Below the pieces are notes generated by a model, which made no database searches, was not told the origin of the DNA, and was given only the letters and a program-made list of their open reading frames with translations. Shown in pieces: positions 1 through 10,566 of a stretch of 33,188 nt of DNA. The stretch's first letter is position 1. Every line of letters starts with the position of its first letter. The stretch covers positions 1-33,188 of the forward strand of contig NZ_JAQGMM010000567.1 in the NCBI RefSeq assembly GCF_028292365.1. The letters run 5' to 3'. A program made the position numbers and the translations under genes. Source of the stretch: Caballeronia sp. GTDB lineage: Bacteria > Pseudomonadota > Gammaproteobacteria > Burkholderiales > Burkholderiaceae.

Positions 1-54
1 ACATCGGCTGAACCAGTCCAGGGTGGCGGCAAGCGCCGTGCGGCGTCGCAAGAC
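1..54 (-). pseudogene. possible IS3-family transposase (OrfB) fragment at window edge
   Basis: Read on the minus strand, positions 54 to 1 are open for 18 codons and include LAATLDWFSR. This resembles the conserved LAAVLDWFSR stretch of IS3-family integrase-type transposases. An in-frame TGA at 57-55 lies just upstream, so any element is already broken inside this window. The match is very short and the rest would lie outside the window, so this is a pattern-based suggestion only. Confidence 0.3.
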
Positions 55-163
55 TCAACTTTGTCCGATTCCAACGTGAGAACTGTCTACGATAACTGTG
101 AAACGTTTGCGTCACACGGTTCCGTTACCGCCGTGTCTGTCGTCGCAGAGGCGTTCATTCAAA

Positions 164-177
164 CGTTATGCATAACG
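164..177. promoter_or_regulatory. 14-bp perfect palindrome upstream of the sensor gene
   Basis: CGTTATGCATAACG is its own reverse complement. It sits about 110 bp before the sensor start at 289, and is itself flanked by CGTTC (152-156) and GAACG (177-181). Its position and symmetry fit a dimeric regulator site for the sensor/CHAT genes, but no specific regulator can be named. Confidence 0.35.
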
Positions 178-288
178 AACGTGTATGCCCAGCTTTGTTC
201 GTCGACTGCTGCAGGTCTGGCCTGGTGCGCCACGACTGAAAGCATCTGGCCGGCATCGCGCGAAAAAAACAAGACAGGCGGAGAGGGT

Positions 289-3099
289 ATGTCAATCAAT
301 CTGGAAGCGCGGCCACGTGCGCGGCGTAGCCGTGAGCTTGTGAAATCAGACCTCGTTGATTCGCTCATGGCGTCGGGAGCCGCTTACGCGGTAATTGATC
401 CCGACGCCAGGGTCGTACGAACGAGTGAAGCACTCCAAACAATGATCCCGGGGATTGCTGGAAATTCGATCGTTGATGTCTTCCAGGTGGATGGCGCTCT
501 TCTCCTTGGACATGACGCTCCCTATCCTGCTGCCCCGGGCATGTACGCCAACGCACGCGGCGAAAACGTGCCCGCGATGCTTCAGTCCATGGTGGAACTT
601 CCGGACACCGGTCGGCTCATCCTCGTGACTGACGGCGCGCCATTCCGGCGGGCGGAGAGCCAGCGCTTCGATTCAACGCCTTACGCGATCATGCGCGTGT
701 CGCCGGATGGCATCGTGCACTTCGCCAATGCCGAAGCCTTTAATCTCTTGTCACTCCTGCCCGGCGACGTGACAGGCCGTCCGCTCGCGGCGCTCTTCGA
801 GGGATGTGACGGCGCGAGCATCCCGCAACAGCTCGAAGCGTGCCTTAGGACGCTGGCCCCGGTGCCAGTGAACGTGTCGGTGTGCAATCGGGCGAATGGC
901 AAAGGGGAGTTGTTGCGGCTGGTGCTGACGCCTGACCTCACAGCCGATCATCGCCCGCTCGGCTCGCTCGTTGTGATCCAGTCCACCTTGCTTGAACGGG
1001 TCCGCGACGAAATATCGACGCTTGCACACGATCCCGGCATACCGTCGTGGGAAAAGCGCCTTGAATTGATTCTCGAGTGCGTGCGCCGTGTCTTCGATTT
1101 CGATCACGCGAACTTTGGCATCTATGCTGACGACGTCAGCGTCTTCCGCGCCTTTGCCATCTTCCCTCGCGACCGCCTGAGGTGGTCCGAGCGATGGCTG
1201 AGACTGCCAGAGAATATTGAGCCATGGCTGAGAAGCGGTAAGACCGCGGTGCCGGATATTAATAAATTCCTCAAGGACTACCCAGAACTTGCGACCAGCG
1301 AAGTGGCGCAGATGTACGTCAGCAAACACATGCGTTCCTCGGTGACGCTGGTTGCAACAGGTGCGCAAAATTTTCCGACGTCCGCACTTTCGTTCTCTTC
1401 CAAACAGGTGGGCAGGTTTGGTCAGGCACACGTCGATTTGCTGCGGGATCTGGATCTGGAGCCGGTGCTGATTCGCATCGAAAATGAGATTCGATCGGGT
1501 CGCGAGGCATTGGCAGCCCGCCTGCGCAGCGAGCTGGCAAGCGCCCCATCCCTGCCGGAAGTGGCACGCAATATTGTCGACCAGATAGCCAGCAGTTTCA
1601 GGTGGGATTTTGTCGCGCTGTTTCGCGTCAACAGGCACATGAAACAGTTCGAACTGTTTCATCACAATCCCTGCAAGGACTGCTTTGCGTTGGACGCGGC
1701 TTTTCTGCAGCCGATCGATCAAGGCATGCTCGCGTCTACGCTGTGCGAGCATCGCACGCTGATTGTCAATGACATTGGCGATCCCGAGGTCGAGCAGTTC
1801 GATTACATCGGGCTTGGGAGGCCCACACGATCCGCGATGACTATTCCGGTTCACCTGAACGGGCGCATTCGCTGGATCCTGAATATCGAGTCAAAAGTCG
1901 CGCACGCTTTCCACGGTCCTGACCGGGAAGCAATCGAACAAATGACGGAGTCCATCGAGGAGGGACTGAGGCAGCGCACGCTCGCGGAAATCAACAAGCT
2001 CGTGCTCAGGGAAACCGAGCAGGGCGTTGTGACGGTGGGCATGGACGGCACGATCCTTGGCACCAACGCGGTGGCCGAGAGCCTGCTCGGCAGGTCGGGC
2101 AGTTCGGCAAGCGCCGCGCCTAGGGAGTTCCTCAGCATGTACGCGTCACCTGACGACCCGCGTGCGGTGGATGTGCTCAAGGGTCAGGGCGGGACCGAAA
2201 AGCGGCGGATTGAACTGGTCGGCGACGATGGTGAAATTCGGCCGGTCCTGGCGACTCGCAAGGCGCTCGACGAAAGTTTCGACGCCGCGCTGTGGTTCCT
2301 GATCGACTTGCGCAGCGACAGGTGGACGGTTGACCTGCGCTTCTTGCGCGAGACGGTGACCGATGTCGCGCAGCAGACGCGTGCGCCGCTTGCGCTTGCG
2401 TCGTCGCTTGCGCGCCAGGTGCCGCAGCTTTGGACCACGGTGCCTCGCCCCCCAGCGGAATCCGGCGTGTCGCCTTCGGGCGAGTTGGAGAATCTGTCGA
2501 CGCGGTTGATCGCCGAGATCAACAAGGCGGACATCACGTTCGAGCGGCTCGCGGAAAACCTCAATGTCCGGCGCAATCCGGCCGGGAACATGCAGCGCCT
2601 CGATCTCCGCTTCTGTATCGACTCGGTGATCGACGGACTGCCCAAACGCGATCGCAACCGTGTAAGCAGGGTCAAGCCGCAGACACCGGTATTCGTGAAC
2701 GGCGACCCCGAGCGGCTCACGTTCGTGGTGCGCTCGATCGTGGCGCATCTCATGCGCGTGCTTCCGGCCGATGGGAATGCGCGCGCGTGCGTTGAGCTGT
2801 CGTTGCATGGCGCGAGCGCAGCGCTGGTCATGGCGATTGCCGACTGTCCCGACGCTGGCATCGAAACCGATGGCGACGAGGCGTCCGTCGCGAACGCACG
2901 GCCGGATGCGCTATGGCGCGCATACAAAGCCGCCCGTGGCGACGCCAGCCTGGGCTTAAGCGCCGTGAGGCGCGTGATCAAGGCGCATGGCGGCACGCTG
3001 AAAGCACGCGCTGGCAACGCTGAACCTGGCGATCCCTCTCCGCCGTGGGTCGCCTTTCGCGTGACCCTCCCCGTTGCAGACCGGAGCGTCCAGCCATGA
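289..3099 (+). CDS. multi-PAS/GAF sensor with degenerate histidine-kinase core
   Basis: Predicted cytoplasmic signal-input protein of 936 residues. The ATG at 289 is chosen because GGCGGAGAGGG precedes it; an in-frame TTG at 61 would add 76 unconvincing residues. Visible order: PAS-like (about 26-100), PAS (about 127-235, with SPDGIVHFANAEAF), GAF-like (about 245-400), second GAF (about 413-560), third PAS (about 569-680), then a region shaped like HisKA plus HATPase. The phosphoacceptor box reads QQTRAPL at about 695, where active kinases have HELRTPL, so the histidine is missing. The N-box asparagine is His at about 820, the G1 box is DCPDAGIE, and only the G2-like GLSAVRRVIKAHGG is well kept. 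It probably senses a ligand or redox state and passes the signal by contact rather than phosphotransfer (inference). No membrane segments were seen. It is coupled to the next gene by an ATGA overlap. Confidence 0.8.
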   Translation: MSINLEARPRARRSRELVKSDLVDSLMASGAAYAVIDPDARVVRTSEALQTMIPGIAGNSIVDVFQVDGALLLGHDAPYPAAPGMYANARGENVPAMLQSMVELPDTGRLILVTDGAPFRRAESQRFDSTPYAIMRVSPDGIVHFANAEAFNLLSLLPGDVTGRPLAALFEGCDGASIPQQLEACLRTLAPVPVNVSVCNRANGKGELLRLVLTPDLTADHRPLGSLVVIQSTLLERVRDEISTLAHDPGIPSWEKRLELILECVRRVFDFDHANFGIYADDVSVFRAFAIFPRDRLRWSERWLRLPENIEPWLRSGKTAVPDINKFLKDYPELATSEVAQMYVSKHMRSSVTLVATGAQNFPTSALSFSSKQVGRFGQAHVDLLRDLDLEPVLIRIENEIRSGREALAARLRSELASAPSLPEVARNIVDQIASSFRWDFVALFRVNRHMKQFELFHHNPCKDCFALDAAFLQPIDQGMLASTLCEHRTLIVNDIGDPEVEQFDYIGLGRPTRSAMTIPVHLNGRIRWILNIESKVAHAFHGPDREAIEQMTESIEEGLRQRTLAEINKLVLRETEQGVVTVGMDGTILGTNAVAESLLGRSGSSASAAPREFLSMYASPDDPRAVDVLKGQGGTEKRRIELVGDDGEIRPVLATRKALDESFDAALWFLIDLRSDRWTVDLRFLRETVTDVAQQTRAPLALASSLARQVPQLWTTVPRPPAESGVSPSGELENLSTRLIAEINKADITFERLAENLNVRRNPAGNMQRLDLRFCIDSVIDGLPKRDRNRVSRVKPQTPVFVNGDPERLTFVVRSIVAHLMRVLPADGNARACVELSLHGASAALVMAIADCPDAGIETDGDEASVANARPDALWRAYKAARGDASLGLSAVRRVIKAHGGTLKARAGNAEPGDPSPPWVAFRVTLPVADRSVQP

Positions 3100-4721
3100 G
3101 CACGATATCCGAACAGGCAGCCGAGATCGCCCTGATCACCGACGACAACGGCACCGCCGAGCTGATCGATGGCGCTCGCGAGAATCTGGTTCACCACGCA
3201 GGCAAGTATTCGGAGGCAAAGCGATTCGTTGAATCCTACGTTACCCGATGGGCGTCGGCGGCGACGGCCGAGTCGAAACTCGCTGCCCTGGAAAAGGGTG
3301 AGGATCCCGCTCTCATCATCCTCGACATCATGGTTCGCAGGGAGACGCGCGGCGGCAATCCGGGCAACGGCATGGCCGGGATCGCGCTGCTCGACTGGCT
3401 CGGCGTCAACAAGCCCGATGTCCCGGTGATCGTGCTCGGGGCGCAAGGGGTTGATGGCCTCGAATCAAGGCTCTTGCAGCGCACGCACATTGCGAGCCTG
3501 TCGATCGGGAACGGCGATCTTAACGATGCGTTCGCCAAAGCTTTGTCGTCGTTGGCGACCAGAGCGCCGTCAGCCTGCCGGCGCATTACGGTAGAGGTGG
3601 GTCACTACGACGCACGCTATTCGATCATGGACGGGCCCGAGGAGTTCAAGAGCGGAAACCATCCCTATGCCAGCCGGGAGTTCCTGGAAGAGCTTGGTCG
3701 AAAGACCGACGCGTTCGAGCCCGGCGATCCACGGTGGCAGGAAATCGTTCGCGAACTCGGCGACGCGGTGTTCAGTTCGGTCATTGCCGGCACCATCGGG
3801 CCGCACATTCTCACGCAGATGCGCCGGCGTGCGCCCGCGGCACACAACCTGCCTTCGAATGTGGATTTGCGCTTCGAGATTTTTGTCCCGCGCAACGAGA
3901 TGGCGAAGTTCTTCGGGGTGCCGTTCGAACTCGCCAAACCGCCGGAGGATATCGACAATTACCTCTGTACCCGCGTTCCGATGGCGCGCCGGATGCGCTT
4001 TGAGGACGAGCAGGACGAGGGTAGGGGGTCAGGCGCGGATGCCCGGCCGCCCGACAGAAAGATGCGCATGCTTTTCATCAACGCGAGCTTCGAGGGGACG
4101 GCTTTTGCGACGCACGAGGTCACCGGCGACCGGATCAAGATGACAGTGGGCAGGCTCGAGAACACGGCGGCCGAACTGAAAACCGTGAGGGAGTTCGCGA
4201 CGGCCGAGGGAGGTGACGTTCTGGTCCCGCCAACCGTGCTGGGCGGCGGGTCGAACCGCACCAGCGCCGAGAAACTGCTACGCGAGCTCGAGGATCAAGT
4301 GACGACAGGGGACTTCGATATCGTTCATTTTGCCGGGCATTCGGTGACGCTGGACGGCGGTGGCGGGACATTCCTCATTCTTCCTGGCAAAAGCGGCGAG
4401 GGCATTGCGGTATCCGTGCGCGAGATTGCCGAATGGATCAGGCAGGGTGGCTGCAACCTCGTGTTCGTGTTGTCTTCTTGTAGCGGCTCGTCGCTTCGCA
4501 CGGCAATTGAAACCATGCGTGCCGGCGCAAAAGCTGCACTCGGGTTCCGCTGGGACGTGAACGACCGTGCGTGCGTGGAATATTTCCGGCGTTTTTATAC
4601 AGAATATCTAGGTAATAAAAAGACTATTCCTGAGGCATATTGCGAAGCATGCCGAAGGATTTCCGTTTCTCAGCGCGGCGTGCCGATCTGGGCTTCTGCC
4701 GTTGCGGTTGTAAGAGACTAA
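3096..4721 (+). CDS. receiver-like domain fused to CHAT (caspase-like) protease
   Basis: 541 residues. The ATG at 3096 overlaps the sensor stop (ATGA), implying translational coupling. The N-terminus (about 10-150) resembles a response-regulator receiver: acidic pair D16/D17 after beta-1 and a candidate phosphoacceptor D77 in LIILDIMV. The usual Thr/Ser and Lys positions are not recognisable (VIVLGAQG; SLSIGNGD), so it may be a pseudoreceiver. The middle part contains LRFEIFV and GVPFEL, like the strand and PWEL region that precedes many CHAT domains. The C-terminus is a CHAT domain with the expected His-Cys dyad: H415 in HFAGHS and C462 in VLSSCSGS. CHAT proteases are caspase relatives that cleave partner proteins, for example gasdermins or Craspase substrates. 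Here the likely input is the upstream sensor and the likely targets are neighbouring products (inference). The last roughly 50 codons are strikingly AT-rich. Confidence 0.85.
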   Translation: MSTISEQAAEIALITDDNGTAELIDGARENLVHHAGKYSEAKRFVESYVTRWASAATAESKLAALEKGEDPALIILDIMVRRETRGGNPGNGMAGIALLDWLGVNKPDVPVIVLGAQGVDGLESRLLQRTHIASLSIGNGDLNDAFAKALSSLATRAPSACRRITVEVGHYDARYSIMDGPEEFKSGNHPYASREFLEELGRKTDAFEPGDPRWQEIVRELGDAVFSSVIAGTIGPHILTQMRRRAPAAHNLPSNVDLRFEIFVPRNEMAKFFGVPFELAKPPEDIDNYLCTRVPMARRMRFEDEQDEGRGSGADARPPDRKMRMLFINASFEGTAFATHEVTGDRIKMTVGRLENTAAELKTVREFATAEGGDVLVPPTVLGGGSNRTSAEKLLRELEDQVTTGDFDIVHFAGHSVTLDGGGGTFLILPGKSGEGIAVSVREIAEWIRQGGCNLVFVLSSCSGSSLRTAIETMRAGAKAALGFRWDVNDRACVEYFRRFYTEYLGNKKTIPEAYCEACRRISVSQRGVPIWASAVAVVRD

Positions 4722-4805
4722 TTTTATCTTCTCGCCATTCAGTCCGGATTGACGCCTCACACCAGATATTTAGTTAAACAGATCAATTAACCTGAAGGAT
4801 CTGCC
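4575..4805. other. AT-rich patch spanning CHAT gene 3' end and intergenic gap
   Basis: From about 4575 the sequence becomes visibly AT-rich, with runs such as GGTAATAAAAAGACTATT and TTTAGTTAAACAG. Both flanks are GC-rich. The patch covers the last roughly 45 codons of the receiver-CHAT gene and the 84-bp gap before the lysozyme gene. It may mark a recombination join, an internal promoter, or recently acquired DNA. Confidence 0.4.
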
Positions 4806-5558
4806 ATGGACAATTTTGACCAGTTGTTACAAGAAACAATTAACACACCCGGACTTCTTGGGGTTTCCGACATAGATGACGAGCGCAAGCAGTTCGAGGC
4901 CGATCATCCCACGGGGCCGGCGCCGACTCTGCTCGGTCCAGTACAGCCGATCTCGGACCGTGCGATCCAGCTGATCATCGCTTTCGAAATCACGAGCGAA
5001 GCCCTTTACGACCGGCTGTATCAGCGGCCGACGTGGCCGAAGGGAAAATCGGGCGTGACCATCGGCATAGGGTATGACCTTGGTTACGTGCAAGCGGCGC
5101 AGATTGGCCGCGACTGGACAGCAAGCTTGGGAGCGCCGGCGGTAGGGACGCTGTCGCGCGTGTGCGGCCTGACGGGCGAAACCGCACATCAGGCATTGCA
5201 GCAAGTGACGGGGGTAACCGTGCCGTTCTCAGCGGCAAGCTCGGTGTTCCAGCAGACATCCGTGCCGCGTACTACGACCGAGACCGCCAATGCGCTGCCC
5301 GGCTCCGACGCGTTGTCGCCGGATTGCATGGGCGCGCTCGTTTCGCTCGTCTATAACCGCGGTCCTTCCTTCAGCGCCGATGGCGATCGCTACACCGAGA
5401 TGCGTGCAATCAAGGTGGACGTTTCGCAGAAAAATTTCAAGGATATTCCTGCGCAGCTTCGTTCCATGAAGAGGCTATGGGCAGGCGACCCGAACGCGGC
5501 CGGCCTTGTACGCCGGCGAGAACTTGAAGCCTTGTTGTTCGAGCAAGGTTTGTCGTAA
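4806..5558 (+). CDS. GH24/T4-type lysozyme-like protein without signal peptide
   Basis: 250 residues. The start follows GAAGGA with 6-nt spacing. It resembles phage-type lysozymes: candidate catalytic E61 in IIAFE, then GVTIGIGYDLG (about 83-93) like the TIGxGh signature, LVSLVYNRG in the second helical half, and a C-terminal VRRRELEALLF like the RRxxEAxLF end of T4-type enzymes. The expected activity is cleavage of the peptidoglycan glycan chain. No signal peptide or transmembrane segment is visible, and the first roughly 50 residues form a polar, proline-containing extension that could be a regulatory or cleavable region. It lies 84 bp after the receiver-CHAT gene and 87 bp before the hydrolase-CHAT gene on the same strand. 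This suggests a stored cytoplasmic lysis effector rather than a housekeeping enzyme (inference). A TTGACG at 4749-4754 might be the -35 of an internal promoter, but no good -10 follows. Confidence 0.75.
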   Translation: MDNFDQLLQETINTPGLLGVSDIDDERKQFEADHPTGPAPTLLGPVQPISDRAIQLIIAFEITSEALYDRLYQRPTWPKGKSGVTIGIGYDLGYVQAAQIGRDWTASLGAPAVGTLSRVCGLTGETAHQALQQVTGVTVPFSAASSVFQQTSVPRTTTETANALPGSDALSPDCMGALVSLVYNRGPSFSADGDRYTEMRAIKVDVSQKNFKDIPAQLRSMKRLWAGDPNAAGLVRRRELEALLFEQGLS

Positions 5559-5645
5559 GCCATCAAAACGGGCTGCGCCGGTGTTGAGCCTGCGCATTGC
5601 CAACATGAACGACGCATGACCACATGCCTAATTGGGGAGACAGAT

Positions 5646-8600
5646 ATGCCGATCCGTCAAATCACAGGTACGCAGCTCGATTATTTCCTGATCATGTTCG
5701 ATGAAAACGGCGCCGAGCGGCCGGAAGACGACAAGACCATGCTCAGCGACGCCGTGCGCAAGCGGCTGAAGGAGGGGAACGCGCCGGTCACCGATATCTT
5801 CGTGATGGTTCACGGCTGGATGGGTGACGCCACGAGCGCGGCGGAGCAGTTCGACCGGTGGACGGCGGCGATGCTGTCCGTCAAAGCAGACATCGAGAAA
5901 ATGAACGCGCGCAAGCAAGGCTTCGCTCCGCTGGTCATCGGCCTGCACTGGCCCAGCCTGCCGTGGGGTGTCGAGAGCGCTTCGGCCGCCGGGGCGACGG
6001 TGCTGTCGACGGGCAGCAATAATAGCGACACCAGTGCCGACATCGCAGCGGTCGCCTCACAAGTCGCGAATACGGACAAAGCGAAGAAAGCCATAGCGGA
6101 GATCTTCGCCTTTGCGAACCAGGCGCGCTCGGCCGAGTTGACGCCTGATATCGTCGACGCTTATGCGGTGCTCTTCCACGAGTCGCAACTGCGGGTCGGG
6201 AGCTTGCGCGGTCGTCCGGGTTCGGATCAGGAGGCTTTCGACGCGCCGTCGATCGTCGAACAGGCACAACAACAAGCGCAACAACAGGCCAACCCAAGCA
6301 ACGCAGACGGAGCGGGGCAACGGGTACTGGGCGGCGGTGGCATTGCCGGAACGATCAAGGACGCGATCCTTGCGCCGTTGCGCCAGTTGTCGTTCTGGAA
6401 GATGAAGGACCGCGCGCGCGTGTTCGGCGAAAGCGGCGCACACGCGTTGCTCGGTAACCTGCAGGTTGCGGCGCCCGATGCGGCGTTTCATCTGATGGGT
6501 CATAGCTTCGGCTGCATCGTCGCGTCCGCGATGGTCGCCGGTCCCGACGGCGCCAATGCGTCGCCGCTGCCGCGCCCGGTCGATTCGCTGTTTCTCGTGC
6601 AGGGCGCCTTGTCGTTGTGGTCGTACGCCACGGACATTCCCTACGCGCCAGGAAAGCTGGGCTATTTCCAGCGCATCCTGAGCGATGGCGGCGTTCGCGG
6701 GCCGCTCGTCACCACGCGCTCCTCCCACGATTCAGCCGTCGGCCGCTTTTATCCACTCGGCGCGCGCCTCAAAGGGCAGACCTTGCTGGGCGAGACGTAT
6801 CCCGAGTACGGCGGCATAGGCACATTTGGCATACGTGGCAGCGCGGGCGCGCAAGACCTGGTCATGCAGACCAGCGGCTTTATCTACACGTTCGAGAATG
6901 GCGGTATCTACAACCTCGATGCCAGTGACGTCATCAAGAACGGCGACGGTCCCGCCGGCGCGCACAGCGACATCGCGCATCCGGAAGTGGCACACGCGTT
7001 CTGGGGTGCGATCCTGACGATGAAAGGCATGGCGGCATCGCCGGCAGTTGCGCCCGCGGTGCTACGTACCGCCGGCGCCAATCCCCCGGACGGTGCCCCG
7101 CAGCCGGTAGCAACGGGACCCGCTGCGGCCCCGCCTCCGGCTCCAAAGCGCAAGCCCGGGCTGCTGGATATTGGAGCTCCACGGCGTGAAGCCGAGACGG
7201 CGGTGAAGGTAACGAATATGGGCCCGGACACATCGCATCGCGGTGTCCAGATTCTGGGAATCGAAACCGCTGTCGACGCGATGGCAACGCACGGCGGCGC
7301 GCTTGATCTGTCGCTGGCTGCGGGAGCGGCCGACGTTGATTCACTCAGCGCAGGATCGCCCGCGGCCGCGGCAGGCTCCCCGGCTCCCCAGCGCTGGATC
7401 AACGCGGACTTCGAGGGGCTGAAGCCGACCGATCCGCTCGTCAAGGGCGAGTGGTACACGTTGGCATTTGACATCGATACGGTCCGGAAGGTCGCAGCTC
7501 AAGCGACGGCCTTCGCCGAAGAGGGCGTGTTTGCTTCGGGTGTCGATGAGGTCGTGCTGACGGTTCAGATCGATACTCAGGACTTCGATATTTCAGGCCG
7601 AACCAGCCAGATGCGTCTGCCGCGCGTGGGCAAGGCGCATACCAAGGCGCGCTTTGACGTGTCGCCGCTAAAAGACGGCCCGTGCACGATCAAGGCGACG
7701 ATTCTCAAGGATGGTAATTTTATCCAGCAGATGGACCTGAGCTTCGACATAGGTCAGCCGCGGCCAGCGCAGCCGGACGAGATTCCCTCACGCGGGCGGG
7801 CGTTCGGCAGCGCGGGGCTGCTGGAGTCGAGAGACCTGGGACTGCTGATAAAACCGAGTGACGGCGGCTACGATTGCACCGTATGGGGCGCGGTGGCGGC
7901 CAGCGCGCACTTGCCGATCACGCCCGCGTATCTCGACGACGCCATCAAGGTGGCGCGCAGCCAGTTGATGCAGGTCGTGATGCAGCGCGATGCGGCCGGC
8001 AACTATGTGTTCCAGTCCGACGTTGAGATACCGAAGGAGGCAACCGCGCTTGCGCTGAAGACCATGTCGTTCGCGGGCGCGTTGCTGCTGCAAAAGCTGT
8101 TTTATGCTCCGGGCGCCGGCCTCGATTCAAAAGCCATAGGTGACGTTCTGCGGCGTCTCGCCGGCGAGCGCACGTCCCGTCTCAATCTGCAGATAATTGC
8201 AGAGAGCCTGCCGGTTCCCTGGGGCTTGCTCTATGTGGGCGATGTGTCCGACCCCACCAAGCTCGACTGGGATAACTTCCTCGGCATGCGTCACGTGATC
8301 GAACAGATTCCGTTGCAGAATCCAATGAGAGTGACGGACCGCCGCATTCGCACCGATCCGGTTCTCGCGGTCAGCGTCAACCTGAACGACGACATCGATA
8401 TTCAGATGGAGTGCGACTTCGTCAAACAGCAACGCGACTACTGGCGCTCGACCGAGCGGATAAAAGTGATCGGGAGGAAGACTTCGGAAGAACTGGTGGC
8501 AGCGCTTAACGATGTCAACAATACCGATCAGATCCTCTACTTCTACGGTCACGCAGGGTCCAACGGCCTGACCGATCCAGGCGGCCCGGGCGGGTCAAGC

Positions 8601-8978
8601 CTTGCGCTGACAAACAGCACGGTCACACTGGACGAACTGACGTTGACCGCGCCCGCCAGCGTGCAACTGGGTGGCAGTCCGCTGGTGTTCATCAATGCTT
8701 GCGAATCGGCCGAGATGTCGCCCATGTTCTACGATGGATTCGCACCGTACTTCATGAGCAAGGGAGCGCGTGGTGTCATTGGTACCGAATGCAAGACGCC
8801 GGCCTACTTCGCCATGGTGTGGGCGCAGCGATTCTTTGACGTGTTTCTCAAGGGCGAACCCCTTGGCACCGCGTTCCTGGATCTCCGCCGCGAGTTTCTG
8901 CTGAAACAGGGCAATCCGCTCGGCCTGCTCTACGCGGTGCATTGCAACGCGGATACCACGGTGGATCCCGCAATATAA
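5646..8978 (+). CDS. alpha/beta-hydrolase fused to CHAT protease
   Basis: 1110 residues. The ATG at 5646 is preferred over 5616 because GGGGAG lies 6 nt upstream. The N-terminal half (about 1-470) is a serine alpha/beta-hydrolase: oxyanion-type MVHGWMG around H56, nucleophile elbow GHSFG with S287, and a plausible catalytic histidine H440 in AHSDI. A Gln-rich insert (about 205-215) and a Pro/Ala-rich linker (about 480-510) follow typical interdomain positions. A beta-rich middle domain (about 580-705) precedes the CHAT region. The CHAT part has LPVPWGLLY, then H969 in YFYGHAG and C1019 in INACES, the expected His-Cys dyad, with the typical GARGVIGT strand after it. The hydrolase may be a lipase or esterase whose activity is gated by proteolysis, or the CHAT half may act on it or on neighbours (inference). 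No signal peptide. It ends 17 nt from the convergent gene. Confidence 0.82.
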   Translation: MPIRQITGTQLDYFLIMFDENGAERPEDDKTMLSDAVRKRLKEGNAPVTDIFVMVHGWMGDATSAAEQFDRWTAAMLSVKADIEKMNARKQGFAPLVIGLHWPSLPWGVESASAAGATVLSTGSNNSDTSADIAAVASQVANTDKAKKAIAEIFAFANQARSAELTPDIVDAYAVLFHESQLRVGSLRGRPGSDQEAFDAPSIVEQAQQQAQQQANPSNADGAGQRVLGGGGIAGTIKDAILAPLRQLSFWKMKDRARVFGESGAHALLGNLQVAAPDAAFHLMGHSFGCIVASAMVAGPDGANASPLPRPVDSLFLVQGALSLWSYATDIPYAPGKLGYFQRILSDGGVRGPLVTTRSSHDSAVGRFYPLGARLKGQTLLGETYPEYGGIGTFGIRGSAGAQDLVMQTSGFIYTFENGGIYNLDASDVIKNGDGPAGAHSDIAHPEVAHAFWGAILTMKGMAASPAVAPAVLRTAGANPPDGAPQPVATGPAAAPPPAPKRKPGLLDIGAPRREAETAVKVTNMGPDTSHRGVQILGIETAVDAMATHGGALDLSLAAGAADVDSLSAGSPAAAAGSPAPQRWINADFEGLKPTDPLVKGEWYTLAFDIDTVRKVAAQATAFAEEGVFASGVDEVVLTVQIDTQDFDISGRTSQMRLPRVGKAHTKARFDVSPLKDGPCTIKATILKDGNFIQQMDLSFDIGQPRPAQPDEIPSRGRAFGSAGLLESRDLGLLIKPSDGGYDCTVWGAVAASAHLPITPAYLDDAIKVARSQLMQVVMQRDAAGNYVFQSDVEIPKEATALALKTMSFAGALLLQKLFYAPGAGLDSKAIGDVLRRLAGERTSRLNLQIIAESLPVPWGLLYVGDVSDPTKLDWDNFLGMRHVIEQIPLQNPMRVTDRRIRTDPVLAVSVNLNDDIDIQMECDFVKQQRDYWRSTERIKVIGRKTSEELVAALNDVNNTDQILYFYGHAGSNGLTDPGGPGGSSLALTNSTVTLDELTLTAPASVQLGGSPLVFINACESAEMSPMFYDGFAPYFMSKGARGVIGTECKTPAYFAMVWAQRFFDVFLKGEPLGTAFLDLRREFLLKQGNPLGLLYAVHCNADTTVDPAI

Positions 8979-8995
8979 TATGGCGGGCGTGTTCA

Positions 8996-9772
8996 TCACA
9001 GGTCGAGCTGGCTGACATAGTCGGTGCTGTACTTGAGCACCTTCTTCCTTAGATCATCGGCGATGGTGTCGAGCACATCGCCGTTGATCGTGGCCGTCGA
9101 ACTGGTGCAGACGAACTCCACGGCGCTTACATGAGCCTTGAAGAACAGCACCTGATCCAACGTGGTCGTCGCCTCCAGCGAGAACGCCATGAGCGACACG
9201 CCGGATTGTCCGTCCGGCGTTTGTTCCACAAGCGCCATCTGGAAATTCGATGCATTCGCCCGGTTCGTCTCACGACTGAAAATCTTGATCCAGGGGGTGC
9301 TCGCATCAACGCTCGCCATCGCGTTCAAGGTAGTGGCGACAAGCGCAAGCGCCGTTGTTCCGGGTCCGAGAAGTAGCGACGCCACCTGAAGTATCGCCTG
9401 ATGCGCTTCGAATTCGGTGCTGCCCTGGACAGTCTGCGTGTCCGTCTTTGTTTCGATGGTCCATCCAAGATTCGCGAGCACCGCGCAGTACGCGCGGTAC
9501 CACTCGGTGACGTTCTTTGGATCGACTTGCTTTTGCTTGAGAACGAGTTGCGCAAGCAGGAGCGCGTTCATGATGGCAGCGCGCCGATCGGCCGAAACGC
9601 CTCGTGCAAGCGTGAGCACACCCGAACCGACAACGACGGCCTGATTCTGGTTTTGATCGAACGAAGGCGTGGTGTCATCAAGCAAGCCGGCTCCTGAAGT
9701 GGGCCGCTTTATATCGGACAGATCGGTACTGAGCAAGAAAGACCGTGCGTCTTCAACGGAAACCTGTGTCAT
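8996..9772 (-). CDS. unrecognised protein beside the CHAT locus
   Basis: 258 residues on the minus strand. The ATG at 9772 is chosen because GGGAG lies about 8 nt upstream; a longer version to 9838 has no better ribosome-binding site. I do not recognise a family. It has a polar N-terminus, a helix-prone alanine/leucine stretch (MNALLLAQLVLKQK), and a longer hydrophobic segment (about residues 145-170, containing LLLGPGTTALALVATTLNAM) with small and hydrophobic residues. The C-terminal part looks beta/alpha. The hydrophobic segment could be a membrane-active or buried hairpin. It converges on the hydrolase-CHAT gene with a 17-nt gap, so it is probably under its own promoter in the 9773-10566 gap. 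It could be a substrate, inhibitor or effector of the CHAT proteases; this is inferred from position only. Confidence 0.7.
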   Translation of the reverse strand: MTQVSVEDARSFLLSTDLSDIKRPTSGAGLLDDTTPSFDQNQNQAVVVGSGVLTLARGVSADRRAAIMNALLLAQLVLKQKQVDPKNVTEWYRAYCAVLANLGWTIETKTDTQTVQGSTEFEAHQAILQVASLLLGPGTTALALVATTLNAMASVDASTPWIKIFSRETNRANASNFQMALVEQTPDGQSGVSLMAFSLEATTTLDQVLFFKAHVSAVEFVCTSSTATINGDVLDTIADDLRKKVLKYSTDYVSQLDL

Positions 9773-10566
9773 GGCAATCTCCCAGCGTGCCAACAAGATC
9801 ATGCAGTCGGCGGGTTGTGTGTTGGTTGAGCGTTGCATTTCAGATTAGTCGAAAAATCACGCGAAAAAAAGATTTGCAGGGCTACCACCCCGATCTGACC
9901 GAAGGGAGGACTTGAACGAAAAGGAAGTGGTTGCCCTCATCGGGTGCCGTTGTCGCAGAAGACTGCACTGATACTTAGGACTATATATAGTCATTCGAAC
10001 GGAAATTCTCCTTATCACTTGGTGCTGATCTTGCGTGGTCCTTAGATGTCTAAATGGGTATCTGTTCAGGTTTGTCGTAAATAATCGTTTTACTACATAC
10101 CCTCTTCGCGACTATGCAGTGCCGCACATCGAATGAGTTCGGGTCGTTGTGTGAGAAAGCGCGTTTTTGCCGCTTGCACTCAACGGGTTGAACCAGGCAA
10201 TCGCGAGCGAAGTCTTGCCACCAGGTCGAACTCGCGCGGACGATCGATCAACCCATCCAGCAGGGCAGCTTCCCGGAAGGCATTGGTTCCGCGGTCAGAC
10301 CCATGAACCGCTCCCCGTATTCGGGTTGTCCCTGAATCGCTTCCTTGTCCACGCAATCCCACGCAATCCCATGCATCGCGCTCCCCTGTACGGGGGATGT
10401 TGCGCAGCGCTCCGCGCGCACACCATGACTTCCATAGAGGACATCCAAGTGCAAGGGATTCTCCTGCAGCCCGCCGATCGACAGTTGCGCGATGGTTAGT
10501 CGAGCACGCCGGAAATCGGTGAGTCATCCAGAAAAGGATCCGCCCAACAACTTCCAAGGAGGAGAC
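9773..10566. other. 794-bp gap without a convincing gene
   Basis: This divergent intergenic region between the minus-strand unknown gene and the acyl-CoA dehydrogenase must hold both promoters. Visible features are a 14-bp palindrome at 9979-9992 and a perfect tandem copy of ACGCAATCCC at 10351-10370. The part from about 10180 to 10500 is open in more than one minus-strand frame (10180-10599; 10248-10454), but the encoded sequences match no family I recognise. It may be decayed coding sequence. Confidence 0.5.
9979..9992. promoter_or_regulatory. 14-bp perfect palindrome with TATATA core
   Basis: GACTATATATAGTC is its own reverse complement. It lies about 207 bp upstream of the minus-strand gene start (9772) in an AT-rich pocket, and could be an operator or part of a promoter -10 region on either strand. 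No regulator can be assigned. Confidence 0.35.

Follow-up and report, generated by a model that had tools for sequence, protein, structure and literature searches.

Organisation of the locus

The window, that is, the whole stretch of 33,188 nucleotides of DNA of the soil bacterium Caballeronia sp. that was analysed, carries five intact open reading frames at the following positions (evidence in brackets):

289..3099, + strand: gene 1, PAS/GAF/PAS pseudo-histidine-kinase sensor, 936 aa (Pfam; alignment)
3096..4721, + strand: gene 2, CHAT caspase-like protease with a fused degenerate receiver, 541 aa (Pfam CHAT 55 bits)
4806..5558, + strand: gene 3, predicted leaderless pesticin/GH24-like muramidase, 250 aa (profiles, homologues, E61/T85/D91)
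5646..7016, + strand: gene 4, alpha/beta-hydrolase domain with candidate triad S297, D372, H450 (stand-alone homologues; alignment)
7017..8150, + strand: gene 4, variable linker and, by eye, a beta-rich-looking segment between hydrolase and CHAT (conservation)
8151..8978, + strand: gene 4, C-terminal CHAT/C25-like protease domain, H979/C1029 (Pfam; alignment)
8999..9772, - strand: gene 5, convergent, belonging to an unnamed family, 258 aa (neighbourhoods of its relatives)
9889..9890, no strand: right-hand limit of the region in common with C. udeis, beyond which the flanks diverge (blastn)

The whole five-gene cassette is also present in C. udeis, where positions 19 to 9889 are conserved with a DNA identity of 83.7-88.9% (blastn) and a protein identity of 83-92%, and where the right-hand flank is not that of the window. 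Comparison of the two gives dN/dS values of 0.11-0.22 across the five genes, indicating purifying selection; together with conservation of the block, this argues against a chance assembly of the five genes. The cassette is flanked by metabolic, transport and regulatory genes, with no defence island among the ten downstream genes scanned. No PADLOC model fits the five proteins, the best matches (SduA, 18.4 bits; BovA, 19.5 bits) both being partial, and none of the five matches a gasdermin in Pfam or PADLOC.

A pseudokinase sensor paired with a receiver-CHAT protease

The gene 1 product contains PAS_4, PAS, PAS_9 and GAF_2 domains, all above the Pfam cut-off, and a HATPase_c match of 18.1 bits, under the cut-off of 26.4. 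The list of 71 HisKA matches from its own genome does not include it. The two-component hallmark of such a sensor, the phospho-accepting H-box His together with the N-box Asn, is missing from the aligned columns in all eight intact sensors, that of the window included, bearing out the dead-looking kinase core described in the first-pass annotation. Both residues are present in six canonical kinases from this genome that were aligned with gene 1. These six were chosen from ten fetched sequences because they show the H-box motif; as regards the His, they are thus a reference rather than an independent control. In the TH2 sensor, a His lies three residues past the aligned H-box column.

The start of gene 2 overlaps the stop of gene 1. 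Its CHAT domain (PF12770), a member of the caspase superfamily, scores 55 bits against a cut-off of 24, the dyad H415/C462 is kept in 8/8 members, and a profile search of the PDB gave a weak match to one CHAT protein (8tl0, E 0.0076). The receiver match reaches 15.1 bits, under the cut-off of 30.2. The receiver Asp (D77) is kept in six of the eight members, is replaced by Asn in S. meliloti and is doubtful in the poorly aligned TH2 sequence, so that phosphorylation by another kinase would be possible where it is kept.

A gene 1 homologue adjoins a gene 2 homologue in all ten member loci, eight of them intact and two broken (G040 and G010), and among members the start of the receiver-CHAT gene overlaps or closely trails the sensor gene. 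The S. meliloti member aligns with gene 2 over the CHAT part only, and the broken G010 copy over the receiver side only. The count leaves out G524 and G943 (receiver-side stretch only), G742 and G030 (CHAT in other architectures) and a Ruegeria hydrolase-CHAT gene that has no sensor; a second, short gene 4 fragment in C. udeis (L023) is not counted either.

The neighbours of the pair are exchanged between loci. The hydrolase-CHAT gene stands third in the window, in C. udeis and in copy a of G041, and is broken in G040. A protein of about 420 residues takes this place in TH2 and G526 (E 2e-23) and, frameshifted, in copy b of G041, a genome whose two paralogous pairs thus differ in their third gene. 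A Prosthecochloris plasmid has a member of this family too, with the pair absent among the annotated neighbours. In S. meliloti the third gene encodes an S8 peptidase, and an EAD1-trypsin and an endonuclease are encoded nearby; a peptidoglycan-peptidase appearance, by eye, of the C-terminal part of the S. meliloti gene at L056:984-2645 is not claimed, Pfam having found nothing. The G025 pair neighbours DUF7379-TCAD7-CHAT, CHAT and trypsin genes, which are convergent or divergent to it and do not form one operon with it.

Genes 1, 2 and 4 co-occur in two further genomes of the genus, G041 and G040 (one copy broken), and G041 carries them without genes 3 and 5. Among the loci examined, genes 3 and 5 lie beside the pair only in the window and in C. 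udeis; they are unmatched in four of the six related genomes searched whole, and are jointly present or absent in all six. C. udeis also has one further partial match to gene 3. The constant unit is the pair of genes 1 and 2, and genes 3, 4 and 5 are replaceable. The four-gene system of the first-pass annotation is therefore retained in part, as a combination that does recur (all five genes in C. udeis, genes 1, 2 and 4 in the two further genomes), and rejected as a fixed unit, since the pair recurs without genes 3, 4 and 5.

We read the cassette, with a probability of roughly 0.55, as a modular proteolytic conflict or programmed-death operon with exchangeable effectors, in which a pseudokinase triggers a CHAT protease. 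A role in regulatory or housekeeping proteolysis, with the sensor and the receiver-CHAT protein controlling envelope stress or wall turnover and having no part in suicide, would fit the PAS/GAF sensing, the metabolic and transport genes of the flanks, the receiver Asp kept in most members and the purifying selection. However, the distribution is very patchy: gene 2 has matches, some partial, in 7/58 genomes of the genus, and in at least 3/299 sampled genomes of the family, one of them weak (own genome included in both; at most four candidates were scored per genome in the latter sample, making its count a lower bound). Copies are broken in G040 and G010, and the endonuclease, EAD1-trypsin and CHAT neighbours found elsewhere are atypical of housekeeping genes. 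We consider such a role unlikely.

Candidate effectors

The open frame of gene 4 begins at 5616. Its true start is more likely the ATG at 5646, judging from the GGGGAGA that precedes it and from the G041 homologue, which starts at the corresponding place. The N-terminal alpha/beta-hydrolase is recognised from a GHSFG motif and from homologues, with stand-alone counterparts of residues 11-467 on cyanobacterial and rhizobial plasmids, and S297, D372 and H450 are invariant in the three gene 4 sequences aligned. Conservation in this alignment is low at about residues 466-592. The C-terminal CHAT domain scores 34.4 bits at residues 846-1087 (cut-off 24), C25 falls just short of its cut-off at 22.3 bits, and the dyad H979/C1029 is again invariant (3/3). 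A search of the PDB gave no match at 0.1, and the Csx29 model reached 11.8 bits, below its cut-off. Association of the two activities extends to separate genes: in five of six loci fetched via the hydrolase part alone, a peptidase gene adjoins the hydrolase, and in the Streptomyces (fetched via CHAT) and Embleya (via both parts) loci, set apart from this count, hydrolase and CHAT lie side by side. The domain calls first made for the locus, namely CHAT in genes 2 and 4, the hydrolase, and PAS/GAF in the sensor, are confirmed by these scores and motifs.

Gene 3 matches Phage_lysozyme at 19.0 bits (cut-off 22.3) and Pesticin at 16.8 bits (cut-off 25.8), both below the Pfam thresholds, and a PHROG endolysin with E 2.7e-5. 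Ten tblastn relatives with 35-52% identity are annotated as a pesticin-like muramidase (one), an endolysin (one), peptidoglycan-binding (two) and hypothetical (five), with one unannotated. The lysozyme call is supported by the candidate catalytic residues E61, T85 and D91, which are invariant in an alignment of seven sequences and spaced by 24 and 6 residues, against 23 and 6 for the catalytic E178/T201/D207 of pesticin (PMC9927483). An O-methyltransferase match from a single-sequence search (6clw, E 0.0085) was set aside because the profile search found lysozymes instead (best E 0.0016). The ATG is preceded, a few codons upstream, by a stop codon, and the gene starts at the point where the leader of an exported relative would just have ended. 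Judged by these features, the product is a leaderless pesticin-type muramidase, in agreement with the lysozyme-like protein without signal peptide noted initially.

For gene 5, searches of Pfam, PADLOC, NCBIfam and PHROGs gave no significant match, the best being DUF1581 with an E of 0.097, below cut-off. Its profile has no significant match in the PDB (best E 0.38), and profile comparison shows no relation to the 420-residue family (probability 0.2). In viral contigs, scans by pattern turned up relatives of neither gene 5 nor gene 2. Three other settings link relatives of gene 5 to peptidoglycan hydrolases: as neighbours of an amidase and M15, as neighbours of GH108, and in an M15 fusion. In five Pseudomonas-like genomes, where relatives occur as single or three tandem copies, no neighbouring peptidoglycan hydrolase gene is evident by annotation, which weakens the notion that the family is always tied to such enzymes. 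Gene 5 and the 420-residue protein stand out as two unnamed families of candidate effectors or pore formers.

Genes 3 and 5 could instead be an interbacterial muramidase effector and a partner for its immunity or delivery, which came to lie next to a CHAT cassette with which they have no connection. A pesticin-like muramidase acts as a T6SS effector in Vibrio (PMC9927483), the two genes come and go together in the six genomes, and G041 does without both. However, gene 3 is flanked by genes 2 and 4, all three on one strand, and by eye no leader is apparent in gene 5, in which the most hydrophobic run of 19 residues averages 1.74. Moreover, gene 5 relatives accompany varied peptidoglycan hydrolases, which makes gene 5 ill-suited as a specific immunity protein, and this origin appears improbable.

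Proposed mechanism

In the preferred reading, that of a CHAT-driven conflict or death operon, the core would be the PAS/GAF sensor with its dead histidine-kinase core and the degenerate receiver-CHAT cysteine protease. The PAS/GAF array would sense a ligand or stress and cause an allosteric change in a sensor-receiver complex, with no phosphotransfer, and the altered complex would switch on the CHAT protease, which may then process locally encoded effectors that differ between lineages. In the window, one effector could be the protein composed of the second CHAT, the variable linker and the alpha/beta-hydrolase, the latter perhaps freed by cleavage. Another could be the muramidase, which, having no leader, is proposed to be kept harmless in the cytosol until the hydrolase and/or gene 5 damage the envelope and allow it to reach the wall. 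This lysis arm would not be general, since the muramidase and gene 5 are unmatched in four of the six genomes. Phage defence and attack on the envelope, both raised in the first-pass annotation, would be conceivable purposes. A bolder and rather doubtful version envisages an apoptosome-like switch, in which the pseudokinase would hold and release the pseudo-receiver-CHAT without phosphotransfer to engage lineage-specific death effectors; here the protease would free a lipase-like hydrolase, gene 5 would open the inner membrane and the leaderless muramidase would reach the wall, as a host counterpart of holin and endolysin for programmed lysis.

A true two-component phosphorelay driving the CHAT output, with phosphate from another kinase, would draw on the receiver Asp of six members and the at least 71 HisKA matches of the genome as a possible phosphate source, but is highly improbable given the Asn of S. 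meliloti and the doubtful position in TH2, the low receiver score and the loss of both kinase residues from the adjacent core in all eight members.

Comparison with known systems

In Craspase/TPR-CHAT (Csx29) and CHAT-gasdermin systems, a CHAT protease acts as trigger. The cassette would share this feature and differs from them in that CRISPR, TPR and gasdermin searches gave nothing above cut-off among the five proteins.

In the MoxR-vWA/VMAP ternary systems, the caspase-superfamily protease always has a neighbouring alpha/beta-hydrolase gene and the effectors are modular and exchangeable, as set out by Kaur et al. 2020 (PMC7159879). The window has the same pairing of caspase-type domain and alpha/beta-hydrolase, fused in gene 4. 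However, its sensor arm is a PAS/GAF pseudokinase with a receiver-CHAT protein. That paper reports no histidine kinase domains among vWA-associated effectors, and its main text contains neither 'PAS' as a whole word nor 'CHAT' or 'TCAD'. A Pfam scan of 15 window proteins found no MoxR or vWA, the window beginning at a contig end. The TCAD7 of the G025 neighbour is a 'ternary complex associated domain' in Pfam, a link to the ternary systems by name only, as TCAD does not appear in that main text.

'System 3' of the same authors combines a NucA endonuclease, trypsin, S8 and EAD1, with lysozyme-type EAD1 effectors also reported (PMC7159879). The S. meliloti neighbours resemble it in their annotated DNA/RNA non-specific endonuclease, annotated S8 peptidase and EAD1-trypsin (Pfam), whereas the five window genes have no NucA, trypsin or EAD1 (Pfam). 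Both the association of a caspase-superfamily protease with an alpha/beta-hydrolase and the use of lysozyme effectors have been reported before for predicted conflict systems (PMC7159879), so that the first-pass view of the locus as undescribed is limited to this combination of genes and to the sensor arm.

Canu, a caspase-nuclease, and trypsin-activated pro-nucleases offer a plausible mechanistic parallel, in that a caspase-family protease and a partner activate a pro-effector (PMC12799240); the window differs in having no nuclease, its candidate effectors being the hydrolase and the muramidase. Gene 3 differs from pesticin-like muramidases such as VgrG3cp (PMC9927483) in having neither a leader nor a VgrG part and in being encoded inside a CHAT operon. 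To the conflict-system literature compared, the locus adds a type of trigger not found there, a conserved pair of pseudo-two-component sensor and caspase-like protease with exchangeable neighbours, suggesting a route by which bacterial cell-death and immunity systems acquire signalling components.

Gene content and relation to C. udeis

All five genes of the first-pass annotation, with their positions and strands, were confirmed in the window, which lies at the start of its contig, one of 681 that make up the 8.08 Mb genome.

Genes of the cassette
289-3099, plus strand: gene 1, sensor
3096-4721, plus strand: gene 2, receiver-like-CHAT protein, its start overlapping the stop of gene 1
4806-5558, plus strand: gene 3, lysozyme-like protein
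5616-8978 (open frame), plus strand: gene 4, alpha/beta-hydrolase-CHAT fusion
8999-9772, minus strand: gene 5, convergent gene of unnamed family

The true start of gene 4 is most likely at 5646, where GGGGAGA stands before the ATG. Caballeronia udeis LMG 27134 was the only named relative recovered in the gene 3 scan, and the block common to both begins at base 19, close to the edge of the window, and ends at 9889. To its right lies an acyl-CoA dehydrogenase gene in the window and a short unassigned frame followed by a UvrA-like gene in C. udeis, so the cassettes occupy different places. Between the two, dN/dS (Nei-Gojobori, own script) was 0.19, 0.22, 0.12, 0.18 and 0.11 for genes 1 to 5, respectively. 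A short open frame elsewhere in C. udeis (L023:9646-10083, contig C75 of G002) matches part of the gene 4 CHAT end only, and is apparently the remnant of a second copy in a genome that also holds the full cassette.

A sensor/receiver-CHAT pair as the constant unit

The PAS and GAF domains of gene 1 pass their Pfam cut-offs, and its HATPase match stays below threshold. In an alignment with six canonical kinases of its own genome, chosen out of ten because they show the H-box motif, gene 1 carries Gln at the H-box His, and Ser and His at the two N-box Asn. Both the His and the N-box Asn are missing from their positions in all eight intact sensors, window included; the sensor of Rhizobium sp. TH2 has a His three residues beyond the H-box position. 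Gene 2 combines a clear CHAT domain with a sub-threshold receiver match (Pfam), and its CHAT dyad is retained in 8/8 intact members.

Within the genus, 7 of 58 genomes have a match to gene 2, and in the family sample at least 3 of 299 do (own included in both), the latter a lower bound since at most four candidates were scored per genome; the two matches among 289 alphaproteobacterial genomes are both partial. Eight loci with a gene 2 homologue are intact (window, C. udeis, copies a and b of G041, G025, G526, TH2 and S. meliloti pCpl) and two are broken (G040 and G010, the latter retaining the receiver side only). A sensor homologue adjoins in all ten, a count which excludes five CHAT or receiver-only matches (G524, G943, G742, G030 and Ruegeria). 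The S. meliloti gene 2 match is confined to the CHAT part, but the sensor beside it aligns with gene 1 across 700 residues, with E 1e-18 in blastp and 7e-46 in a profile search. The first-pass annotation had grouped the sensor, CHAT, lysozyme, hydrolase-CHAT and convergent genes as one system; its parts do belong together, but the unit is the pseudokinase/receiver-CHAT pair, with exchangeable neighbours.

In G040 (L021) and G010 (L072) the pair is decayed, broken by stops or frameshifts, which suggests that the cassette is costly or easily lost.

Exchangeable neighbours

Settings of the pair
I, hydrolase-CHAT: window, C. udeis and G041 copy a; broken in G040
II, protein of about 420 residues: TH2 and G526; frameshifted in G041 copy b
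III, S. meliloti: DNA/RNA non-specific endonuclease and S8 peptidase (annotation), EAD1-trypsin (Pfam)
IV, G025: convergent DUF7379-TCAD7-CHAT gene (DUF7379 called hydrolase-like by eye), CHAT gene with sub-threshold NTPase matches, divergent trypsin gene

Among loci in setting I, the muramidase and gene 5 accompany hydrolase-CHAT only in the window and C. udeis. The TH2 and G526 proteins of setting II are homologous (E 2e-23), with no Pfam family found; around a homologue on a Prosthecochloris plasmid no CHAT or sensor gene is annotated within the 21 kb viewed. An S8 gene is present downstream in TH2 too. That a single genome, G041, holds two pairs with different third genes speaks for effectors being swapped while the core stays the same. 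In G025 the neighbours and the pair need not form one operon. There the trypsin gene, pair, DUF7379-TCAD7-CHAT gene and CHAT/sub-threshold-NTPase gene fall inside 14 kb (L070:4382-18795), perhaps as multiple conflict-system cores adjoining one another.

The associated proteins

The search with gene 4 matched 6 of 101 genomes, own included, one marginally and one (G004) over the hydrolase only. Its C-terminus is a CHAT/C25-like domain (Pfam) and its N-terminus an alpha/beta-hydrolase, identified from motif and homologues; the CHAT dyad and hydrolase Ser, Asp and His (the latter two assigned by reading conserved positions) are kept in 3/3 sequences. A peptidase gene (CHAT-nSTAND1, C25, C25, S8 by motif and S8 by annotation) adjoins in five of six loci fetched via the hydrolase alone, these being 5 of 35 plasmid records and G004; in the sixth, from Rhodococcus, none was recognised next to the hydrolase. 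The G004 relative stands in a one-strand run (L022:3723-10208) with two subtilase-like genes and a radical-SAM/SPASM-like gene, all three by motif, resembling a peptide-modification conflict system. On the Ruegeria pomeroyi megaplasmid (L055:5628-8528), a separate fusion of DUF7379 (hydrolase-like) to CHAT, with an AAA ATPase gene after it, has a gene 4-like architecture with a different hydrolase family.

Lysozyme-type Pfam scores of gene 3 are under cut-off. Ten relatives at 35-52% identity are annotated as pesticin-like muramidase (one), endolysin (one), peptidoglycan-binding (two) or hypothetical (five), with one unannotated, and a seven-sequence profile matches PDB lysozymes (best E 0.0016). 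E61, T85 and D91 are invariant in that alignment, their spacing agreeing with pesticin E178/T201/D207 as given in excerpts of PMC9927483. Five relatives were read whole: by eye, those of Mesorhizobium, Rhizobium BT03 and P. putida have a leader-like start, and those of Rhodovastum and Methylobacterium do not. Gene 3 cannot have a leader because a stop codon lies a few codons upstream of its ATG, which coincides with the expected start of the mature part of the Mesorhizobium relative. The same excerpts, from a study on Vibrio, report lower cell survival with a periplasm-directed pesticin-like domain than with the cytosolic form, making it plausible that a leaderless form would be an effector held back in the cell.

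A phylum-wide sample of 398 genomes gave 7 with gene 5, the own genome among them, and the 289 alphaproteobacterial genomes gave 1 (G333). Its S. fredii relative is immediately upstream of a GDSL-amidase-M15 protein and trypsin, with similar loci on two S. meliloti plasmids (without Pfam scan); that of R. leguminosarum has a GH108 muramidase on one side and a TIR gene on the other, and a CHAT gene close by; and that of G333 is fused to a GDSL-caspase-M15 protein. Each of these three settings besides the window includes both a protease and a peptidoglycan hydrolase. Diverged copies in five Pseudomonas-like genomes (genus inferred), whose setting looks housekeeping (neighbours without Pfam scan), count against this tie. 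A membrane or pore role would be a guess, its sole basis being a central stretch of weak hydrophobicity, 1.74 in mean hydropathy. The G333 protein (L041:9308-12694), with GDSL lipase, caspase (C14), M15 peptidoglycan peptidase and gene-5-like C-terminal domain, is a compact lipase-caspase-wall-hydrolase fusion; beside it lie a gene without a Pfam match, judged papain-like by eye, and one with a strongly hydrophobic product. In G229 (L046:8072-10479), three diverged gene-5-like genes in tandem adjoin a 2342-aa open frame.

Comparison with known systems

In the searched portions of Kaur et al. 2020 (PMC7159879), caspase-superfamily domains of VMAP systems always have an adjoining alpha/beta-hydrolase gene, lysozyme domains are found as EAD1 effectors and histidine kinase domains are reported absent from vWA-associated effectors; a term search of the main text returned no 'PAS' (whole word), 'CHAT' or 'TCAD'. 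Open-access library queries for PAS/receiver/CHAT operons, and for CHAT combined with a hydrolase or a lysozyme, listed no paper whose title or abstract opening describes the pair, most subscription papers and all of bioRxiv lying outside. Proteolytic activation of pro-effectors, with a caspase-family protease among the activators, has been shown according to excerpts of Tuck et al. 2025 (PMC12799240). How the cassette would be activated, what it would cleave, whether it lyses the cell and what it is for (phage defence or programmed lysis had been proposed) are all matters of inference; the cassette is filed here as a variant of predicted caspase-type conflict systems.
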